A stretch of 64,000 nucleotides of DNA. Source: Dysgonamonadaceae bacterium (lineage in GTDB: Bacteria > Bacteroidota > Bacteroidia > Bacteroidales > Azobacteroidaceae). Location: NCBI GenBank assembly GCA_031253625.1, contig JAIRVZ010000092.1, positions 1 to 64,000 of the forward strand. The letters are read 5' to 3'. Below, piece by piece: positions 6,852 through 61,466 of the stretch. Every line of letters begins with the position of its first letter. Within the stretch, counting starts at the first letter, position 1. A program made the position numbers and the translations under genes. A model generated the notes under the pieces. That model did not search any database. It had not been told where the DNA came from and saw only the letters and a program-made list of their open reading frames with translations.

Positions 6852-6974
6852 AAAACACAGCAAATCACTGACAGCTAACAGGTGGAATTCTATGTTTCGG
6901 AGGCGATTGTATCGCCGTCGATTAAGGCAGTCGTTTTCAACAAAATAATAAAAACACATTAATTTTTCTTTATT

Positions 6975-9607
<2,633 letters not shown>

Positions 9608-20619: not shown

Positions 20620-21159
20620 TTATATTTTACTTTTTGTTATCAAATCAAATTTAAATAGTGATGTTATGTTATTTTTAAAATCAACCGGACTTTCCTGTTT
20701 ATAGATAGTCATTGGAATAATTCTATCAACAGAATCCTTATGATCAATAAAAATTCTACTAACGCCATGATGGATTATTCCGCCAGGAGTTTGTAGACTA
20801 TCTTTTTCTATAATCCATTCAGATAAATACGAGTCTGTTTGAAAAAAATCTTTTTTACTCCTTTTGGTTAATTCAAAAGCAATTTGATAGCAACAACAAG
20901 ATGTATCAACAACTGAAATTTCCTTCCCCGATTCATCCAATGCAAAACGCCAACATCTTTCTAACCATGCTTTTTCAATAGGAAAAGTTAAAGAATCATT
21001 AAAGGAATGAATGTTTTTTATTTGATACTCTTTAATAAATACATTTCTTTCTTTTGATTCTTGAATATCCTTTGAAACACCCATTTGTCCTTTGTAATCA
21101 ATGTTACATGCACTCATTAAAAGAATAAAAACTGTGATTGTATTTAAATATTTTTTCAT
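20620..21159 (-). CDS. lipoprotein, third gene of module 1 (candidate immunity/partner)
   Basis: Lipobox FILLMSAC; ATGA overlap with the upstream gene. Confidence 0.6.
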   Translation of the reverse strand: MKKYLNTITVFILLMSACNIDYKGQMGVSKDIQESKERNVFIKEYQIKNIHSFNDSLTFPIEKAWLERCWRFALDESGKEISVVDTSCCCYQIAFELTKRSKKDFFQTDSYLSEWIIEKDSLQTPGGIIHHGVSRIFIDHKDSVDRIIPMTIYKQESPVDFKNNITSLFKFDLITKSKI

Positions 21160-21827
21160 TTTTTTTCTTCATTTGGATTTTCCGGCAATGTCGGAATGAT
21201 TTTTTCTTTATTGTTATTCTCAATCTGATTAAACCTGCTATTGGGAGTTGAGGGAAGAGATCCCTTAATACCATCATCGCTATCTACATAAATATACCCG
21301 GGGTCTAAACCCACCGCTTTTAATCCTTCAGAGACAACATCGGCACAATTATTGAATATAGCATTGTACCAACTTTTTGCGGATTCAAGTGATTTAGATT
21401 TTGCAGCATCATCTTGTATAGCATCTGTTGAAAATCGAACATTTTGAGTGTATCCTCCAGATAATCCATCATTGAAAAATTCATTTATTGTTTTAAATTT
21501 CTTATCTGAAGATAAAGATGGACCACCCGTTAACTCATTAGAATACCACTGATCTTTTTGCCTTCCATCTTTTGAGATATACGTCCATCCTGTTTTATCA
21601 TTCCCAACTAAAATTGCCGTGTGTCCATGATTTTTTCCTGCACTTTGTGCTCCATTGGGATTATTAATGACAACAATATCTCTTCCATCGGGATCAATCG
21701 CATTAATGGGATTATTCGCACAATAAGCATACGGTGAAATAGGATAATATCCATGTGCCAAATTTACTGAAAATAAAAATGCAATGCAAATGATTGCAAT
21801 AGTAACAAAAAATTGTTTTGTTTTCAT
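21156..21827 (-). CDS. secreted protein: signal peptide + minimal RHS-core tip + C-terminal papain/NlpC-like domain
   Basis: SPYAYCANNPINAIDPDGRD follows the signal peptide; HGHTAILVGNDKTGWTYIS ... NNCADVVSEGLKAVG. Confidence 0.65.
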   Translation of the reverse strand: MKTKQFFVTIAIICIAFLFSVNLAHGYYPISPYAYCANNPINAIDPDGRDIVVINNPNGAQSAGKNHGHTAILVGNDKTGWTYISKDGRQKDQWYSNELTGGPSLSSDKKFKTINEFFNDGLSGGYTQNVRFSTDAIQDDAAKSKSLESAKSWYNAIFNNCADVVSEGLKAVGLDPGYIYVDSDDGIKGSLPSTPNSRFNQIENNNKEKIIPTLPENPNEEKK

Positions 21828-21850
21828 AACTTCAAAATTTTAAATGTTTT

Positions 21851-22939
21851 TTATTCTGTTTGTAATTTTATTGTTTGTTTTCTCTTTGCCTCTTCTCCAA
21901 CTTTATCAAGTTTATTGCTTAACTCTTCACTCATTTGTTCCCAACCCAACCGTTCCAATTCGGTAGAAATCTCTTTCAATTTACTTTCAAGAAATAAAGT
22001 ATATTCATCTATCACATATTCATTATACGCTAAATATTTCATATAGACTACTTCGAGAGATTTTCCTTTAATTATAAGTGCTTTAGGATGTTGAGGATAA
22101 TATTCTAATGATTTATTGACACATAACCATGTAAAATCGTCATAAACCCGATATTTATTCCAATATCCGAATGCAAGGTCAGCAAGTTGAGAGGCAACTG
22201 TTTCCTTTGCAGTCAAAGGATGAAGATAAATCTTATTTTCAATCGCCTTTTCGGTTATTTCAAAGTTTTCTTTAATCCAAAATTCAGGGGTCAGTTGATG
22301 TGTTGTAAGTTCTACGTTTACCCAATCTTCAGGGAAAAAATTATCTTCATCACGATAGCGGATAAATACATGCTGAGGTGCGTATGTAATGTATGCTTCC
22401 GCATCAATAGCCTCGGCAAGCACTCTGTAATACATGGGCAGAGAGCGACATTGCCCGCTGTGTGTCTGCATAACACCGGTTACAAATTGCTTGGTAAAAT
22501 CCTCTGTTGCTTCAGTATCGTTAAAATTGTATGTAAATGGTTTATAACCATTGCCGGAATAAGGGCGGAAAAAATATTCAATAAGTGCCAAATTTTTAGC
22601 AGTCTTGTATTTTTCCATTTGATTTGCCCTTATAAATCTTTTGACGAAGTTAGCGGCAGAATCTATCGTATTACAATATTTTTCATAATTCAGTTTTCCA
22701 TCGAGATAAGCCCATTCGGCAAGAAAAACAGCACGTTTGATGCTCAAAGATTGCTTACCGTCGAGCATATCGGATATTTCGAGATATGCGGCATTATATA
22801 ATGAACTTTGTGTTTCTATTTGAACACCATCAGTGAGTTCCGGTGGAATTGATGCTTGCGCTTGCGCATTGCTGACAAATGTTACTAAGATAAAGCTTGT
22901 TGTGTAAACTGCTACTAAAAATTTCTTTAATATATTCAT
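21851..22939 (-). CDS. exported transglutaminase-like protein (module 1)
   Basis: THSGQCRSLPMYYRVLAEA, APQHVFIRYRDEDN, WVNVELTTHQ fit a Cys-His-acid triad; paralog of 58830-59930. Confidence 0.7.
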   Translation of the reverse strand: MNILKKFLVAVYTTSFILVTFVSNAQAQASIPPELTDGVQIETQSSLYNAAYLEISDMLDGKQSLSIKRAVFLAEWAYLDGKLNYEKYCNTIDSAANFVKRFIRANQMEKYKTAKNLALIEYFFRPYSGNGYKPFTYNFNDTEATEDFTKQFVTGVMQTHSGQCRSLPMYYRVLAEAIDAEAYITYAPQHVFIRYRDEDNFFPEDWVNVELTTHQLTPEFWIKENFEITEKAIENKIYLHPLTAKETVASQLADLAFGYWNKYRVYDDFTWLCVNKSLEYYPQHPKALIIKGKSLEVVYMKYLAYNEYVIDEYTLFLESKLKEISTELERLGWEQMSEELSNKLDKVGEEAKRKQTIKLQTE

Positions 22940-22992
22940 AGTAATGACTCTTTATAAAATTAATAGACAAAAAAAAGCGGACTTAAATATCC

Positions 22993-23104
22993 GCTTTATG
23001 AGGTCTTCGACTACCTGTTATTTCAAATAAGTAAATCCGCATTGCTACGGCATTTATACTTATTCTCGAAATAACCTTTTGAAAGTGTCGAAGTTTCATA
23101 AAGC
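22993..23104. other. Long imperfect inverted repeat / structured element upstream of module 1
   Basis: GCTTTATGAGGTCTTCGAC ... GTCGAAGTTTCATAAAGC plus an inner pair GTTATTTC...AAGTAAAT / ATTTATACTT...GAAATAAC. Confidence 0.6.
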
Positions 23105-55033: not shown

Positions 55034-55981
55034 ATGAAAAAAATCAGCACATTATTAACCGGTTTTCTTATGATGTTTTTTGCTGCTTCTGCGCAAATAT
55101 CTGATATCGAATTACGTGAAACATTGGATTTAATAAATAAAGACAGTCTTAGTCACACAGTGCAGTGTATGGAGAACTTTGAATCGCGACGATGTAATAA
55201 AACCATTGGTCACAACAAAAAAGTTGCCCAATATTTGGTAGATCGCCTAAAAGCGTATGGTATTGAAAATGCCCGCATTGACTCTTTTGTGGTATCAATT
55301 CCGAATCATTGGTTAGCAGGCCCGGTAAATCAATATATGTATAATGTATTGGGAACCTTGAAAGGCACAGGAGAAACCGATTCTACCGTGATTATCGGTG
55401 CGCATTTGGATGCCATCTCTTTTACAGGAACGCGTCCGGATTTTATTCTCGCAGAAACCGCGCCCGGCGCCAATGATAATGCTTCCGGTTGTGCCGTGAT
55501 GATTGAAATGGCACGAATTATCTACGAAAATAATTTAAAACCGTATCACAATATTGATTTTATGGCTTATGATGCGGAAGAGATCGGCTTATTGGGCTCT
55601 TACTACGATGCAGGAAAAAGACGTGCAGCAAACGAAAATATCATTGTAATGTTGAATAACGATGTGGTGGCTTATGAGCCGGAAGAAGATTGGGGGATAT
55701 ACCTTGTCGGACATAGTAATGCATTAGATGTTATAGAAAAAGCAGAACAAGCACTGATAGATTACACCATTGTTTCTCCGTTTTTTGCAGCCCTTGATAC
55801 TGAAAGTAGCGACAACTATCCTTATTACAAAAAAGATTATAAAGCTATTCGCTTTGTCGGGAAAAATTACAGTGCGTTTCCTCATTCTGAGAATGACCAT
55901 TCAGAAATTTTGAATTTTGAATTTTGCCGGCAAATTGCAAGAATGAATTTCGTTTTGCTTGCACATTACGCTGTTTTTTAA
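55034..55981 (+). CDS. M28 family metallopeptidase, secreted
   Basis: VIIGAHLDA; PGANDNASGCAVMIEMA; DFMAYDAEEIGLLGS. Confidence 0.93.
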   Translation: MKKISTLLTGFLMMFFAASAQISDIELRETLDLINKDSLSHTVQCMENFESRRCNKTIGHNKKVAQYLVDRLKAYGIENARIDSFVVSIPNHWLAGPVNQYMYNVLGTLKGTGETDSTVIIGAHLDAISFTGTRPDFILAETAPGANDNASGCAVMIEMARIIYENNLKPYHNIDFMAYDAEEIGLLGSYYDAGKRRAANENIIVMLNNDVVAYEPEEDWGIYLVGHSNALDVIEKAEQALIDYTIVSPFFAALDTESSDNYPYYKKDYKAIRFVGKNYSAFPHSENDHSEILNFEFCRQIARMNFVLLAHYAVF

Positions 55982-57069
55982 TCCTTTTGGTTCAACTCAT
56001 CCAACGGACTTCTAACATTCCTCAACTGGCGATTACCCACTTTAGCATAAATCTGGGTAGTTTTTATATCTCTGTGTCCCAGTAGCTTTTGGATAAAAGT
56101 CATGTCGGTTCCACATTCCAACAAATGCGTAGCATAACTATGCCGTAAGCCATGAATTCCCACCGATTTATTGATTTTCGCTTTTTGCATGGCATTTTTA
56201 AAAACAGCCTGTACACTGCGAATAGCATATTGTCCGCCATATTGACCCTCAAACAGGTATATTTTAGGACGATAAGCCCGATAATAATTTCGCAAATCAT
56301 CGAGAATGCTTTCGGGTAAATTTACATATCTATCCTTTTTCCCTTTCGCATTTTCGATATGTACCATCATTCGACTGCTGTCGATATTGGTAATTTTCAG
56401 ATTCACAATTTCGCTAACACGCAAACCCATTCCGTAGCACAATTTAAGCATCAACAAATGTTTCGGATTTTCAACTTGAGCAAAAATCCTCACAATATCT
56501 TTCTTGCCGATAACTTTAGGAAGCTGTGATTTCTTTTGTGGGCGGGGAATTTCCTCAAAGAAAATCTTCTCACGATGCAGCACTTGCTCAAAGTAAAATT
56601 TTACGGCGTTCATTCGACTATGAATAAGGTTTTCCGAAAATTTTAACTTTGTTATGCAATACAAAAAATAAGACCGTAAACGTTCAGGTGTCAATGTATC
56701 TACAGATGTACCTTTAAGCAAATAGAGTAATTGTGAAAATTCGGCACAGTAAATTCTAATGGTGCTTGGACTGTATGCTTTGAGCAAAAGCAATTCATGC
56801 ATTCGTTTGAGTGCAACAAGATTTACCGGATGAATTTGACTAATAACGGCTTTCCCCATTTCCGTTTTAGGCATCAAGCCAATTTCATTTCTAATGGCAC
56901 TACTATCGGGCAAATACCAACATTTTTTAGAAGAGCTCCACTTAGCTGTAGGAACCTTTTCCTTCAATTCATTTTTTAATAAAAGATTGTAGGGGAAATG
57001 CACAAAAATAACATTTTTATTTTGGTATTCGCCTGTCAAGAATTGGTAATTTTGATGGTTAAATGACAT
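55978..57069 (-). CDS. tyrosine recombinase/integrase with extra N-terminal domain
   Basis: GMGLRVSEIVNL, HGLRHSYATHLLECG, LGHRDIKTTQIYAKV, C-terminal VRSPLDEL; start taken at MSFNHQ. Confidence 0.92.
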   Translation of the reverse strand: MSFNHQNYQFLTGEYQNKNVIFVHFPYNLLLKNELKEKVPTAKWSSSKKCWYLPDSSAIRNEIGLMPKTEMGKAVISQIHPVNLVALKRMHELLLLKAYSPSTIRIYCAEFSQLLYLLKGTSVDTLTPERLRSYFLYCITKLKFSENLIHSRMNAVKFYFEQVLHREKIFFEEIPRPQKKSQLPKVIGKKDIVRIFAQVENPKHLLMLKLCYGMGLRVSEIVNLKITNIDSSRMMVHIENAKGKKDRYVNLPESILDDLRNYYRAYRPKIYLFEGQYGGQYAIRSVQAVFKNAMQKAKINKSVGIHGLRHSYATHLLECGTDMTFIQKLLGHRDIKTTQIYAKVGNRQLRNVRSPLDELNQKD

Positions 57070-57136
57070 ACGCATTTCTAAATATAAATTTTTACAAACA
57101 TACATAAAAACGAGGTAATATTATAATGATTTTTCA

Positions 57137-57426: not shown

Positions 57427-58437
57427 ATGAAATCATTAGAAATTGAAGGTTATATTTTTAACCCTGTCATTCCAGAAGAGAAAGTATCTGTAACTAATAT
57501 TGATGTATATTATGGATATACTGATGTGATAATAAAAAGGAAATTAGTAGAACAATTAAAAACTATTCCTGAATTAGGGCGGGAACTTGTCAATTTGCCT
57601 AGTGGAATTAAAATACAACTACCTTATGTAGAAATTGGGATAAGAATAAATTCTGTTAAATTTAATAACCTTAAAGCATTCGTTGTTGAAGATAACTACT
57701 ATGATTTAGTATTGGGAAAAAGTGCCATTTCAGAACTTTTTGATTTTGAAAATATTCAAGTTTCAAATAGGAAAAAAGAAAGTAAGGAATTATTATCAAT
57801 AAGAATTCATTCAGTAGACAATTCTTATAAGATTTTAAATGTTGAAAATTTTCTACGAGAAAGTAGAAGACTTTTCAATGTATCAATGATTATTGAAGGA
57901 GAAATTGAAGTAAACACATTAGAAGATATTGATAATGTAATTGATAATGAAATCGGTATTCCTGAAAATAAAAAATTACAATTATCTTGGATTGAGGAAG
58001 GCTCAATTTGGATTACATTGAAATCAACAGCAAAGTCTCTATTTTCTTTCGGAAAAATGCTTGTTGGTGGTAAATCCTCAATATTGGAAGAAAAATTTTA
58101 TGAAGCAAAGAAAAATAAAATTGAAAGTGAAACTCTACAAGAACTACTACCACAAATTATAGAAGAAAGGAAAGCGGAAAAAGAAAAATTTACAGCAGAA
58201 CACCGCCACGAAACAAACAAGATATGGAGAGAAGAAATGAAAGAGCAGATTTCTTTTTTAGATGAAATGATTACCAAGACTATCAAACCCGAACTTGCTT
58301 TAAAATTGATAGAAAAGAAAAATGAAATCATAGAAACATTATGCAATCAAAATATGCTACCAGAGATAATAAATATGCCTGATAAACAAATGCTTGGAGA
58401 TAATCCTCGAAATTTGCCCATAATCTACGAAGAATAA
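57427..58437 (+). CDS. hypothetical protein, unit 1 ORF; N-terminus resembles a degenerate retropepsin-like fold
   Basis: Complete ORF; AFVVEDNYYDLVLGKSAISELFDF resembles the second half of clan AA proteases, DTG triad absent. Confidence 0.65.
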   Translation: MKSLEIEGYIFNPVIPEEKVSVTNIDVYYGYTDVIIKRKLVEQLKTIPELGRELVNLPSGIKIQLPYVEIGIRINSVKFNNLKAFVVEDNYYDLVLGKSAISELFDFENIQVSNRKKESKELLSIRIHSVDNSYKILNVENFLRESRRLFNVSMIIEGEIEVNTLEDIDNVIDNEIGIPENKKLQLSWIEEGSIWITLKSTAKSLFSFGKMLVGGKSSILEEKFYEAKKNKIESETLQELLPQIIEERKAEKEKFTAEHRHETNKIWREEMKEQISFLDEMITKTIKPELALKLIEKKNEIIETLCNQNMLPEIINMPDKQMLGDNPRNLPIIYEE

Positions 58438-58829: not shown

Positions 58830-59930
58830 ATGGATAGTTTTGTCATACAATTTGTGGAAACCAAATGGAAATATTGTTTGGTCGCTACCTTTTGTGTGCT
58901 TTCACTTTCCGTTGTTAACGGTCAAACAATAGATACCAAAATCCTGCCGGGACTTACTGGTGGCGTTCAAATAGAAACACAAAGTCCGTTATATAATGCT
59001 GCATTTCTCGAAATTTCCGATATGCTTGACGACAAGCAGCCTTTGAGCATCAAACGTGCTGTTTTCCTTACGGAATGGGCTTACCTTGATGGAAAGTTGG
59101 ACTATGAGGAATTTTGTAAAACGATAGACAATGCTGCTGATTTTATCGAAAAATTCATAAAGGCAAACGGAATGGAAAAATACAAGACCGCCAAAAACAT
59201 GGCGCTTATCGAATATTTTTTCCGCCCTTATTCGGGTAACGATCATAAGCCTTTTATATACGATTTTAGCGATGTTGAAGGAATCGAAGATTATACTAAA
59301 CAATTTGTAAGCAAAGTTATGCAAACACACTCAGGGCAATGCCGTTCTTTGCCAATGTACTATAGAGTGCTTGCTGAAGCTGTCGATGCTGAAGCATACA
59401 TCGCATACGCACCACGCCATGTATTTATCCGCTATCGTGATGAAGATAATTTTTACTCTGAAGAATGGGTAAATGTAGAGCTTACAACACATCAATTAGT
59501 CCCTGAATTTGCGATTAAAGAAGGTTTTGAAATAACCGAAAAAGCGATTGAAAATAAACTTTATCTTCATCCGCTGACTGCAAAGGAAACGGTTGCTGTT
59601 CAACTTGCCGACCTTGCATTTGGATATTGGGCTAAATATAAGTTTTGTGACGATTTTACATGGCTATGCGCTAACAAATCGTTAGAATATTATCCTCAAC
59701 ATCCCAAAGCTCTTGCAACTAAAGGAAATTATCTCGAATCGGCTATTATAAAACGTTTGGCATACAACGGATATGGCATTGATGAGCAGATTCTATTTCT
59801 TGAAAGCCAATTGAAAATGGTTTCCGAACAGTTGGAACATTTGGGTTGGGAAGATATGAGTGAAGAGTTGGAAGCTGAACTCAATAAGGTTGGCGAAGAC
59901 GTAAAGAGAGAACAAGAAGAAAAATTTTAA
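58830..59930 (+). CDS. exported transglutaminase-like protein (module 2)
   Basis: Clear paralog of 21851-22939; same THSGQCRSLPMYYRVLAEA / APRHVFIRYRDEDN / WVNVELTTHQ motifs. Confidence 0.7.
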   Translation: MDSFVIQFVETKWKYCLVATFCVLSLSVVNGQTIDTKILPGLTGGVQIETQSPLYNAAFLEISDMLDDKQPLSIKRAVFLTEWAYLDGKLDYEEFCKTIDNAADFIEKFIKANGMEKYKTAKNMALIEYFFRPYSGNDHKPFIYDFSDVEGIEDYTKQFVSKVMQTHSGQCRSLPMYYRVLAEAVDAEAYIAYAPRHVFIRYRDEDNFYSEEWVNVELTTHQLVPEFAIKEGFEITEKAIENKLYLHPLTAKETVAVQLADLAFGYWAKYKFCDDFTWLCANKSLEYYPQHPKALATKGNYLESAIIKRLAYNGYGIDEQILFLESQLKMVSEQLEHLGWEDMSEELEAELNKVGEDVKREQEEKF

Positions 59931-59962
59931 ACAAAATAAAAGACAATAAAAATTTAGATATT

Positions 59963-60781
59963 ATGAGAACAAGACAATTTTTTATCACTACTGCAATGAT
60001 TTGCATTGCATTTTTATTTTCAACAAATTCAGCATACAGCTTTCCTTGGCAAAGTCCGTATGCACACGCAGCAAATAATCCGATTAGGTATGTTGATGTA
60101 AATGGGGATAGTATATCGTTCTCCTATCAGTATAATGCAAATAATGAGTTGACAGGAGTAACAATGAATGTTACGGGTAAAGTCATTAATGTTTCTTCCA
60201 ACTCGAAAGTAAATATGCAGGCTGCTGCAAATCGAATTTCCAATCAAATAGCATCTTCTTTTAGTGGAAATGTAAATGGTGTTTCATTTTCAACGAATGT
60301 AAATTTATCTGTTGCTAATTCTATGGATGATGTCGCAGACAGCGACCATGTATTTGCCTTAGCTGATATGGGAAGTATTGCAACACCAGATGGGAGTAGA
60401 ACTCCTAATGGTGGGTCAAATATGATGGGAGGAAAAGTTGCTTTTATAGATGTAGATTATTTTTCAGGACCTTGGGATACATCATTTGGAGATACAGGAC
60501 CAAGAACTGCAGGTCATGAATTTGGTCACTTGGCAAATTTATCTCATGTAACAGGAGGCTCAAATTTAATGATTCAGGGAGCCGGAAATTCTTGGGGCTC
60601 TTTTGGGGCAACAAAAATTAATAATGGTCAATTAAAATCAATCCACGGGTCATATATAGGTGGATATTTGAATTTAGGTAGTAATTATGAGTTAATTCCT
60701 AGAGTTAATCCTACAACAGGAAGGATAGAAATGAAAGCAATGCCTAATAGAGGAGGAGTAAAATCAGTAATAAAATACTGA
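59963..60781 (+). CDS. secreted protein: signal peptide + minimal RHS-core tip + metzincin-like zinc protease domain
   Basis: SPYAHAANNPIRYVDVNGDSI after the signal peptide; HEFGHLANLSH (HExxHxxxxxH), then SNLMIQG. Confidence 0.7.
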   Translation: MRTRQFFITTAMICIAFLFSTNSAYSFPWQSPYAHAANNPIRYVDVNGDSISFSYQYNANNELTGVTMNVTGKVINVSSNSKVNMQAAANRISNQIASSFSGNVNGVSFSTNVNLSVANSMDDVADSDHVFALADMGSIATPDGSRTPNGGSNMMGGKVAFIDVDYFSGPWDTSFGDTGPRTAGHEFGHLANLSHVTGGSNLMIQGAGNSWGSFGATKINNGQLKSIHGSYIGGYLNLGSNYELIPRVNPTTGRIEMKAMPNRGGVKSVIKY

Positions 60782-60782
60782 A

Positions 60783-61466
60783 ATGACAAGATTGACATAC
60801 ATATTTGTTCTTTTTATTATAATTCTGACAGGTTGTAATAAGTATTTTAAGCCTACTGGTATCATTGACAGGACAGAGGAGTTTTCTGGTAAAAACATTT
60901 GGGTTTCCTTAAACGACAAAGAGAGGATAGATGGTTATACAAGAATTGGAAATTCTATATTTGGAGGAGAAATTGCTTGTAACATAGAGCCGCTAAAAAA
61001 TATTGATACTGAAACTTTTCAAGTCTTGGCAGGTACGCAATACGCAAAAGACAAGAATAATGTTTATTATCCAATAGAAATTCCTTGCATTGATTTTGTT
61101 GACTGTAGCGTTTGTTTTTATGATAGAATAATTGTAGAAGGAGCCAATCCAATAGATTTTGAATATTTAGACAAAGATTATGCAACAAGTGGTAATATAG
61201 TTTTTTTTCGAGGAGAATTATTAAAAGGTGCTGATGGTGAAACATTTAAAGTAATCGAAGGCCCAAGATATTTCTACTTTGCAACAGATAAAAACAATGT
61301 ATATAAGCACAACAAAATCGTAAAAGATGCAGACCCTTCTACTTTTTATTATGATGACACCGACTCAAGAAATGTAATTTCAGAAATTTTCGATAAATAT
61401 ATAATTGGAGACAAGAATAATAAATGGGAATACTTGCCTCCTGATGAAATGAAAAAGATAGAGTAG
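60783..61466 (+). CDS. DKNYY-like lipoprotein (candidate immunity/partner, module 2)
   Basis: Lipobox IIILTGC; repeated DKNNVYYP / DKNNVYKH; 1-nt gap from the upstream stop. Confidence 0.65.
   Translation: MTRLTYIFVLFIIILTGCNKYFKPTGIIDRTEEFSGKNIWVSLNDKERIDGYTRIGNSIFGGEIACNIEPLKNIDTETFQVLAGTQYAKDKNNVYYPIEIPCIDFVDCSVCFYDRIIVEGANPIDFEYLDKDYATSGNIVFFRGELLKGADGETFKVIEGPRYFYFATDKNNVYKHNKIVKDADPSTFYYDDTDSRNVISEIFDKYIIGDKNNKWEYLPPDEMKKIE

Follow-up and report, generated by a model that had tools for sequence, protein, structure and literature searches.

A candidate polymorphic toxin-immunity cassette with a dedicated transglutaminase-like companion in Bacteroidota

The window analyzed here is a stretch of 64,000 nucleotides from a Dysgonamonadaceae bacterium (assembly GCA_031253625.1, contig JAIRVZ010000092.1, positions 1 to 64,000 of the forward strand). 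It contains two three-gene modules, module 1 on the minus strand (20620-22939) and module 2 on the plus strand (58830-61466). Both encode a transglutaminase-like (TG) protein, a short protein with a signal peptide, an Rhs tip and a variable C-terminal domain, and a lipoprotein. Based on comparison with related loci across the phylum, module 1 is probably a polymorphic toxin-immunity cassette with a dedicated exported TG enzyme, which would act on the constant front of the toxin carrier. The features of the two modules are as follows.

22939-21851, minus strand: module 1 gene 1, exported TG-like (Transglut_core2 plus TPR) protein of 362 residues (Transglut_core2 match, AlphaFold model)
22450-22448, 22372-22370 and 22318-22316, minus strand: C164, H190 and N208 of this protein, the predicted Cys-His-Asn residues; also E210
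21827-21156, minus strand: module 1 gene 2, protein of 223 residues with a signal peptide, an Rhs tip and a variable predicted toxin domain (TIGR03696 Rhs_assc_core, E 6.6e-5)
21684-21737, minus strand: Rhs tip SPYAYCANNPINAIDPDG, residues 31-48 of module 1 gene 2, the conserved junction preceding the toxin domain
21156-21683, minus strand: module 1 toxin domain, predicted permuted NlpC/P60 (TseH-like) (invariant His/Cys, profile comparison)
21623-21621 and 21347-21345, minus strand: H69 and C161 of the module 1 toxin
21159-20620, minus strand: module 1 gene 3, lipoprotein of 179 residues (lipobox LLMSAC), predicted immunity protein
58830-59930, plus strand: module 2 gene 1, TG-like paralogue of 366 residues, 72% identical to the module 1 TG protein
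59963-60781, plus strand: module 2 gene 2, signal peptide, Rhs tip and metzincin-like predicted toxin domain (HEFGHLANLSH; Reprolysin_3, below cut-off)
60783-61466, plus strand: module 2 gene 3, DKNYY lipoprotein (lipobox ILTGC; PF13644, E 1.7e-19), predicted immunity protein

An earlier sequence-only reading of this DNA had described the modules as sharing their gene order and closely paralogous first proteins, with middle proteins alike only in the leader and the SPYAxxANNPI tip and with unrelated third genes. The positions of the open reading frames (ORFs) on both strands and the identity of the two TG proteins bear this out. The middle proteins have 28 of their 48 N-terminal residues in common and no clear resemblance beyond, and the sole BLAST match between the third proteins is at the level of the signal peptide (E 0.016, 21% over 42 residues), the one of module 2 being a DKNYY protein. 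Genes 1 and 2 of module 1 are separated by 23 bases, and genes 2 and 3 are indeed coupled by the ATGA overlap noted in that reading. Reprolysin_3 gave a weak match for module 2 gene 2 (E 0.0018, below cut-off) and none for module 1 gene 2, and the module proteins had no match in PHROGs or PADLOC.

The middle proteins of the related loci (hereafter carriers) begin with a signal peptide, in most cases followed by a domain of ~90 residues (consensus NPFKKFGYKKKVLTLSKGKYKEFFDNDSIVQIGSVLLNTKTKKIVGFVEEDT...), and continue with the Rhs tip and a C-terminal toxin domain; they are ~220-400 residues long overall (10th-90th percentiles of 116-157 residues for the front and 190-233 for the toxin). The window modules are without the extra front domain of ~90 residues. 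Among 102 tip proteins, P32, Y33 and P40 are invariant and S31, N39, D45 and G48 nearly so, and TIGR03696 matches 100 of the 102 carriers (E ≤ 0.01). In module 1 gene 2 this match, which is below the curated cut-off, spans residues 30-48 and covers the last 19 of the 76 positions of the Rhs core model; the protein has no Rhs/YD repeats and no shell. An NCBIfam scan of the 102 carriers revealed no match to the TANFOR domain (TIGR02542) and no family of C-terminal sorting domains of the type IX secretion system (T9SS).

Homology was assessed by BLAST, ORFs were called mechanically and signal peptides were assigned by a simple rule; the TG protein served as bait in assembling the genome sample, except for a front-only search of 393 genomes of the order. 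TG profile searches were positive in 23 of 393 genomes of the order and in 8 of 395 genomes of a phylum sample, and gave 172 confirmed places in GTDB species genomes, including those of Dysgonomonas, Bacteroides nordii, Aquimarina, Tenacibaculum, Chryseobacterium, Chitinophaga and Balneola; 79 loci were fetched. A short Rhs-tip ORF lies on the same strand at most 4 kb away from 162 of the 180 non-redundant strong TG genes, compared with a chance expectation of ~0.03 Rhs tips per comparable distance of a TG gene, calculated from the tip density of the source genome. The linkage between TG genes and tips is far above chance. Of the 18 TG genes with no nearby tip ORF, 15 are at most 2.5 kb away from a sequence end, so that three are genuine exceptions. 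In the front-only search, at least 28 of ~31 full-front matches were found at TG loci; apart from these there were a carrier in genome G263 with no TG gene on its contig stretch, an ordinary Rhs fragment in G240 and one further match (G193:C83). Ordinary Rhs genes matched the tip only, and orphan tip cassettes with no leader proved to be common in the order.

Thus, the TG-like protein is a nearly obligate companion of the carriers, dedicated to them as the sequence-only reading had suggested, and it is sometimes fused to them. In two genomes, single polypeptides (L085:682-2757 and L086:614-2668) join TG, the front domain and the Rhs tip to two different toxin domains, a good indication of a joint function of TG and carrier. 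Apparently broken modules, including a carrier interrupted before the end of its toxin (L061:5578-6397) and a TG gene split into two ORFs (L110:8281-9981), suggest ongoing gain and loss. Two TG paralogues, of the B and C types, are present at most loci, and a tree of 81 TG proteins shows three groups, the solo type present in the window and, for the dual modules, the long and the short paralogue. A single TG clade unites the five short-front modules (Shimodaira-Hasegawa-like approximate likelihood ratio test, SH-aLRT, 97; L075 was excluded from this count, its apparent short front being a broken long one), and for 91 of the 92 dual modules the closest front is likewise that of a dual module. 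Toxin families cross TG clades and occur on both solo and dual types, indicating that TG goes with the front and not with the toxin.

With a consistent cut at the tip, the C-termini of 106 carriers fell into 50 toxin clusters, the module 2 toxin belonging to cluster T1 along with six other loci. The Pfam families represented are Toxin-JAB1 (11), Peptidase_M91 (10) and matrixin/reprolysin types (metzincins), as well as Ntox21, Ntox33, TNT, TseH, Tox-REase-7, Tox-MPTase3, Tle3, and cell-wall hydrolase and lipase-like domains. Homologous partners were found in 25 of 104 toxin-homologous pairs versus 14 of 4649 non-homologous pairs, and 2000 label shuffles averaged 0.84 and never exceeded 8, although these pair counts are not independent because loci share ancestry. 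A signal peptide, membrane segment or lipobox is present in 88 of 98 first partners, compared with 167 of 467 (36%) other ORFs of like size. The ten non-exported partners include those of all five carriers with cytosol-type toxins (two with Ntox21 and one each with Ntox33, Tox-REase-7 and TNT). This concordance between a cytosol-type toxin and a signal-less partner (p ~4e-6, or 4e-5 with a near-duplicate removed) refers to the five carriers whose toxins are recognised by Pfam and to partner export as called by a simple heuristic. Tandem partner copies occur at L075, L080, L084 and L127. Co-variation, fitting localisation and tandem copies are marks of immunity genes.

The sequence-only reading had named two outcomes that would speak against it, one leader always bearing the same C-terminal domain and a lipoprotein that does not vary together with that domain. 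Neither was found, with ~50 families on one front and the excess of homologous partners given above. Its interpretation of a constant front with a variable effector and partner as a polymorphic toxin-immunity system appears well supported by these comparisons, and many of the C-termini are curated polymorphic-toxin domains.

The window is part of a 3.1-Mb draft genome from the same family as 'Candidatus Azobacteroides sp. Mp193P4bin3' (G193). It encodes six TG copies, two of them in the window modules and the rest at two further loci (C41 and C97), each with the gene order TG, tip protein, partner, TG. The tip proteins of C41 and C97 have a front of ~118 residues in common; one ends in a metzincin-like domain and the other in an unassigned domain. 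Full-length Rhs genes are also present in this genome, none of them at the six TG places. The source genome contains four modules built on one front logic, with four different predicted toxin-partner pairs. In the neighbourhood of the C41 module, we observed an adjoining PDC-S15-type candidate defence protein (L007:3157-4014) and a further defence-like ATPase/PHP protein (L007:12387-15056).

The match of the module 1 TG protein to Transglut_core2 (E 7.5e-4) is below the Pfam cut-off; this family (PF13369), whose function is listed as unknown (PMC10318531), is matched by 29 of 39 TG family members with a best E of 2.4e-5, and some members match TPR. In an alignment of ~177 TG proteins, the Cys, His and Glu residues are invariant and the Asn is present in 174 of 177. 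The TG proteins are therefore predicted to be Cys-His-Asn enzymes. The AlphaFold model of the module 1 protein (m7888583923b0; predicted local distance difference test score, pLDDT, 92) has a TG-like plus TPR fold, and its closest solved structure is human menin (Z 16.7 over 255 residues, 5-7% identity, with a Foldseek E of only 0.035). This Z score is well above those of the next matches (~10), with TglA at Z 10; LapG (Z 8.3), PNGase and a TGase were matched as well. The Pfam Menin family (PF05053) had no match among the TG family members scanned, and the TG profile, when searched against PDB by sequence alone, matched only TPR and VPS28-like entries and no menin, so the likeness is a resemblance of fold only. 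A viral fold search gave one match below E 0.001, a Solivirus protein.

The toxin domain of module 1 belongs to cluster T2 together with those of L078 (54%), L081, L084 and L108. H69, N160 and C161 are invariant in its alignment (A9), and the order of the motifs, with the His (HGHTA) before the Cys (NNCAD), points to a circularly permuted NlpC/P60 type. The sequence-only reading had called this domain papain/NlpC-like and not a metzincin; the lack of a Reprolysin_3 match agrees with this, while the order of the motifs fits the permuted and not the canonical type. The L108 toxin matches TseH with an E of 9.6e-30, and hhalign of the A9 profile against L108 gave 97.4%, partly through the common tip. 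Phospholipase activity has been reported for members of the permuted NlpC/P60 superfamily, TseH included (PMC12994826), and envelope damage from the periplasm would fit a lipoprotein as the immunity protein. Beyond TG loci, relatives of this toxin occur in another three genomes of the order. At L232, the domain is part of an ordinary Rhs orphan cassette and adjoins a lipoprotein gene (6854-7384) whose product is 35% identical over 106 residues to module 1 gene 3 (E 9e-14), and at L231 it caps an Rhs protein of 2823 residues. This suggests that the toxin-lipoprotein pair travels between delivery systems.

At the level of comparative sequence data, the constant front with its variable toxin, the co-varying partner, the near-obligate TG protein, its conserved residues and the TG-carrier fusion are established. 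From these we infer toxicity, immunity, the substrate and reaction of the TG enzyme, the route across the outer membrane and the target cell. Gene 2 would encode a shell-less Rhs toxin exported via Sec, in which the signal peptide and tip are constant and the toxin domain is exchangeable. As a permuted NlpC/P60 (TseH-like) hydrolase, the module 1 toxin would be expected to attack envelope lipid or peptidoglycan, and toxins of other modules would act in the cytosol of competitors. The gene 3 lipoprotein would be the cognate immunity protein shielding the periplasm of the producer and its kin. Gene 1 would encode an exported cysteine enzyme with the transglutaminase/papain fold, dedicated to the cassette and working on the constant front, which it most likely cuts or transamidates, leading to maturation of the toxin, its release from the cell surface or its attachment there.

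Several observations weigh against this interpretation. No common partner family was detected for 79 of the 104 toxin-homologous pairs, and the co-variation is therefore real but incomplete at BLAST sensitivity. Within the toxin class of module 1, L081 and L084 are the only TG loci with a common partner family, and the partner of module 1 itself recurs solely in the Rhs cassette L232. With L108 removed, the A9 profile found a single PDB match at E ≤ 10, to the cysteine hydrolase 6v98, and this match is weak (E 1.2). The AlphaFold prediction for the module 1 toxin (8 sequences) reached a pLDDT of 47 and the model was not used, so the assignment of this toxin to its class draws on motifs and profiles. 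As regards the outer-membrane route, the sheath protein VipB/TssC (PF05943) of the type VI secretion system (T6SS) was found in none of 21 TG-positive genomes, and T9SS SprA is uninformative, being present in 46 of 46 TG genomes versus 233 of 247 (94%) in the background. Alternatively, the TG protein could act as a chaperone or could crosslink a different protein of the cell surface.

A non-catalytic role of the TG protein within the same cassette, as a binding scaffold (chaperone or surface anchor) and not a maturation enzyme, is an alternative that we consider doubtful. Its TPR-like helical half would suit protein binding, its overall fold is closest to menin, itself a scaffold, and anchoring has been proposed for the inactive TG domains of Rhs toxins (Zhang et al. 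2012, PMC3482391). However, these published anchoring domains had lost their catalytic residues, whereas the TG proteins have kept theirs across ~177 divergent sequences, which a pure scaffold need not do. It also seems unlikely that the TG protein, or the TG pair, is a dedicated export device that carries the toxin across the outer membrane with no processing, as MafA would for MafB. The logic is the same in that one conserved exported accessory gene stands beside signal-peptide toxins, and MafB secretion requires MafA (PMC7738311); the B and C paralogues could form a complex, and the TG genomes searched have no T6SS. Nevertheless, the TG model is that of a soluble TG plus TPR protein with no outer-membrane or channel feature, and the catalytic residues are conserved.

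The modules could be viewed as decayed remnants, that is, orphan pairs of an Rhs C-terminus and its immunity gene displaced from full-length rhs genes, with TG as a chance or hitch-hiking neighbour. The carriers do retain the Rhs tip only, orphan tip cassettes are common in the order and the source genome has full-length Rhs genes, but the signal peptide, conserved front, uniform lengths and mostly intact frames of the carriers, the TG linkage and the absence of the front from ordinary Rhs orphans make this highly improbable. Several of the C-terminal domains are hydrolases able to remodel the envelope, but a periplasmic housekeeping enzyme with a lipoprotein inhibitor or partner, brought in by the TG operon, for example for envelope remodelling, is just as improbable given that one front carries ~50 unrelated domains, with an NADase-type toxin and nucleases among them, that partner copies occur in tandem and that the distribution in the order is patchy.

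As in Rhs polymorphic toxins, the end of the core directly precedes an exchangeable toxin and the cognate immunity gene comes next, and the module 1 toxin domain and toxin-lipoprotein pair also occur with ordinary Rhs proteins. In contrast to these toxins, the TG carriers have no repeats or shell, comprise only a signal peptide and tip ahead of the toxin, and are accompanied by a TG gene. An association of TG domains with Rhs-type polymorphic toxins has been described, in which the TG domain is fused N-terminally to Rhs arrays and its catalytic residues are lost (Zhang et al. 2012, PMC3482391); here, TG is mostly a separate gene with Cys-His-Asn kept and the carrier has no Rhs array. The MafA-MafB-MafI system of Neisseria likewise has a signal-peptide toxin with an exported accessory gene upstream and an immunity gene downstream (PMC7738311, PMC4287609), but MafA is an outer-membrane protein of another family than TG, and the front of MafB (DUF1020) is not that of the TG loci. 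TANFOR toxins are similarly almost confined to Bacteroidetes and most have a periplasmic signal peptide, but they are large proteins with a TANFOR domain, and transglutaminase is not mentioned in their description (PMC7073777). The TG-carrier modules are distinct from Rhs proper, the inactive-TG Rhs toxins, Maf and TANFOR.

LapG, which is also a fold match of the TG protein, is a periplasmic TG-like protease that releases a surface adhesin. McjB is a cysteine protease of the TG fold and processes McjA, the precursor of an exported antimicrobial (PMC10318531). Both resemble the TG proteins as TG-fold enzymes acting on exported proteins, but they belong to other subfamilies (Transglut_core3 for McjB) and are not part of such toxin-immunity loci. 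Menin (MEN1) has the same TG-like plus TPR arrangement, but the human protein is a scaffold with no catalytic Cys (PMC10318531). No description of modules combining TG with Rhs tips was found in the open-access PubMed Central literature (subscription papers and preprints excluded), in line with the sequence-only reading, which knew of none.

Several features were observed around the two modules. The stretch upstream of module 1 (22974-23091, minus strand) contains several inverted repeats, one of which is a terminator-like stem (AAAGCGGATATTTAAGTCCGCTTT plus a T run) directly preceding the TG gene; this stretch was assigned to no known RNA family, as the Rfam scan of the window returned tRNA-Ser alone. 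A tyrosine-recombinase-like gene (55978-57105) lies ~1.7 kb upstream of module 2, with an ORF of 336 residues (57427-58437) and a weak aspartyl-protease-like match between them, and module 2 may be in an island. Downstream of module 2, from near the window end onward on contig C89, there is a multi-gene cluster followed by an AbiEi-AbiEii pair (L027:2015-9884). The cluster ORFs (L027:2015-8134) resemble a Wadjet/Jet-type set by gene order, with no PADLOC matches, and a long ORF of this cluster is apparently split in two.

If the toxin-immunity interpretation is right, the TG family, front and partner make up a recognisable, phylum-wide class of polymorphic toxins that is now annotated as unknown proteins or 'Rhs core' fragments. 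This class yields ~50 families of toxins and over 100 of partners, many of them with no Pfam name. It also makes it testable how small toxins exported via Sec are delivered by Bacteroidota lacking a T6SS, and which substrates Transglut_core2-type enzymes act on. More tentatively, one or two catalytically intact, menin-like TG plus TPR enzymes might be required for the export or maturation of shell-less Rhs-tip toxins, as a new delivery class of Bacteroidota. In that case, the modules would represent a new Sec-dependent toxin route, and the TG protein would be a bacterial, catalytically intact structural counterpart of animal menin.

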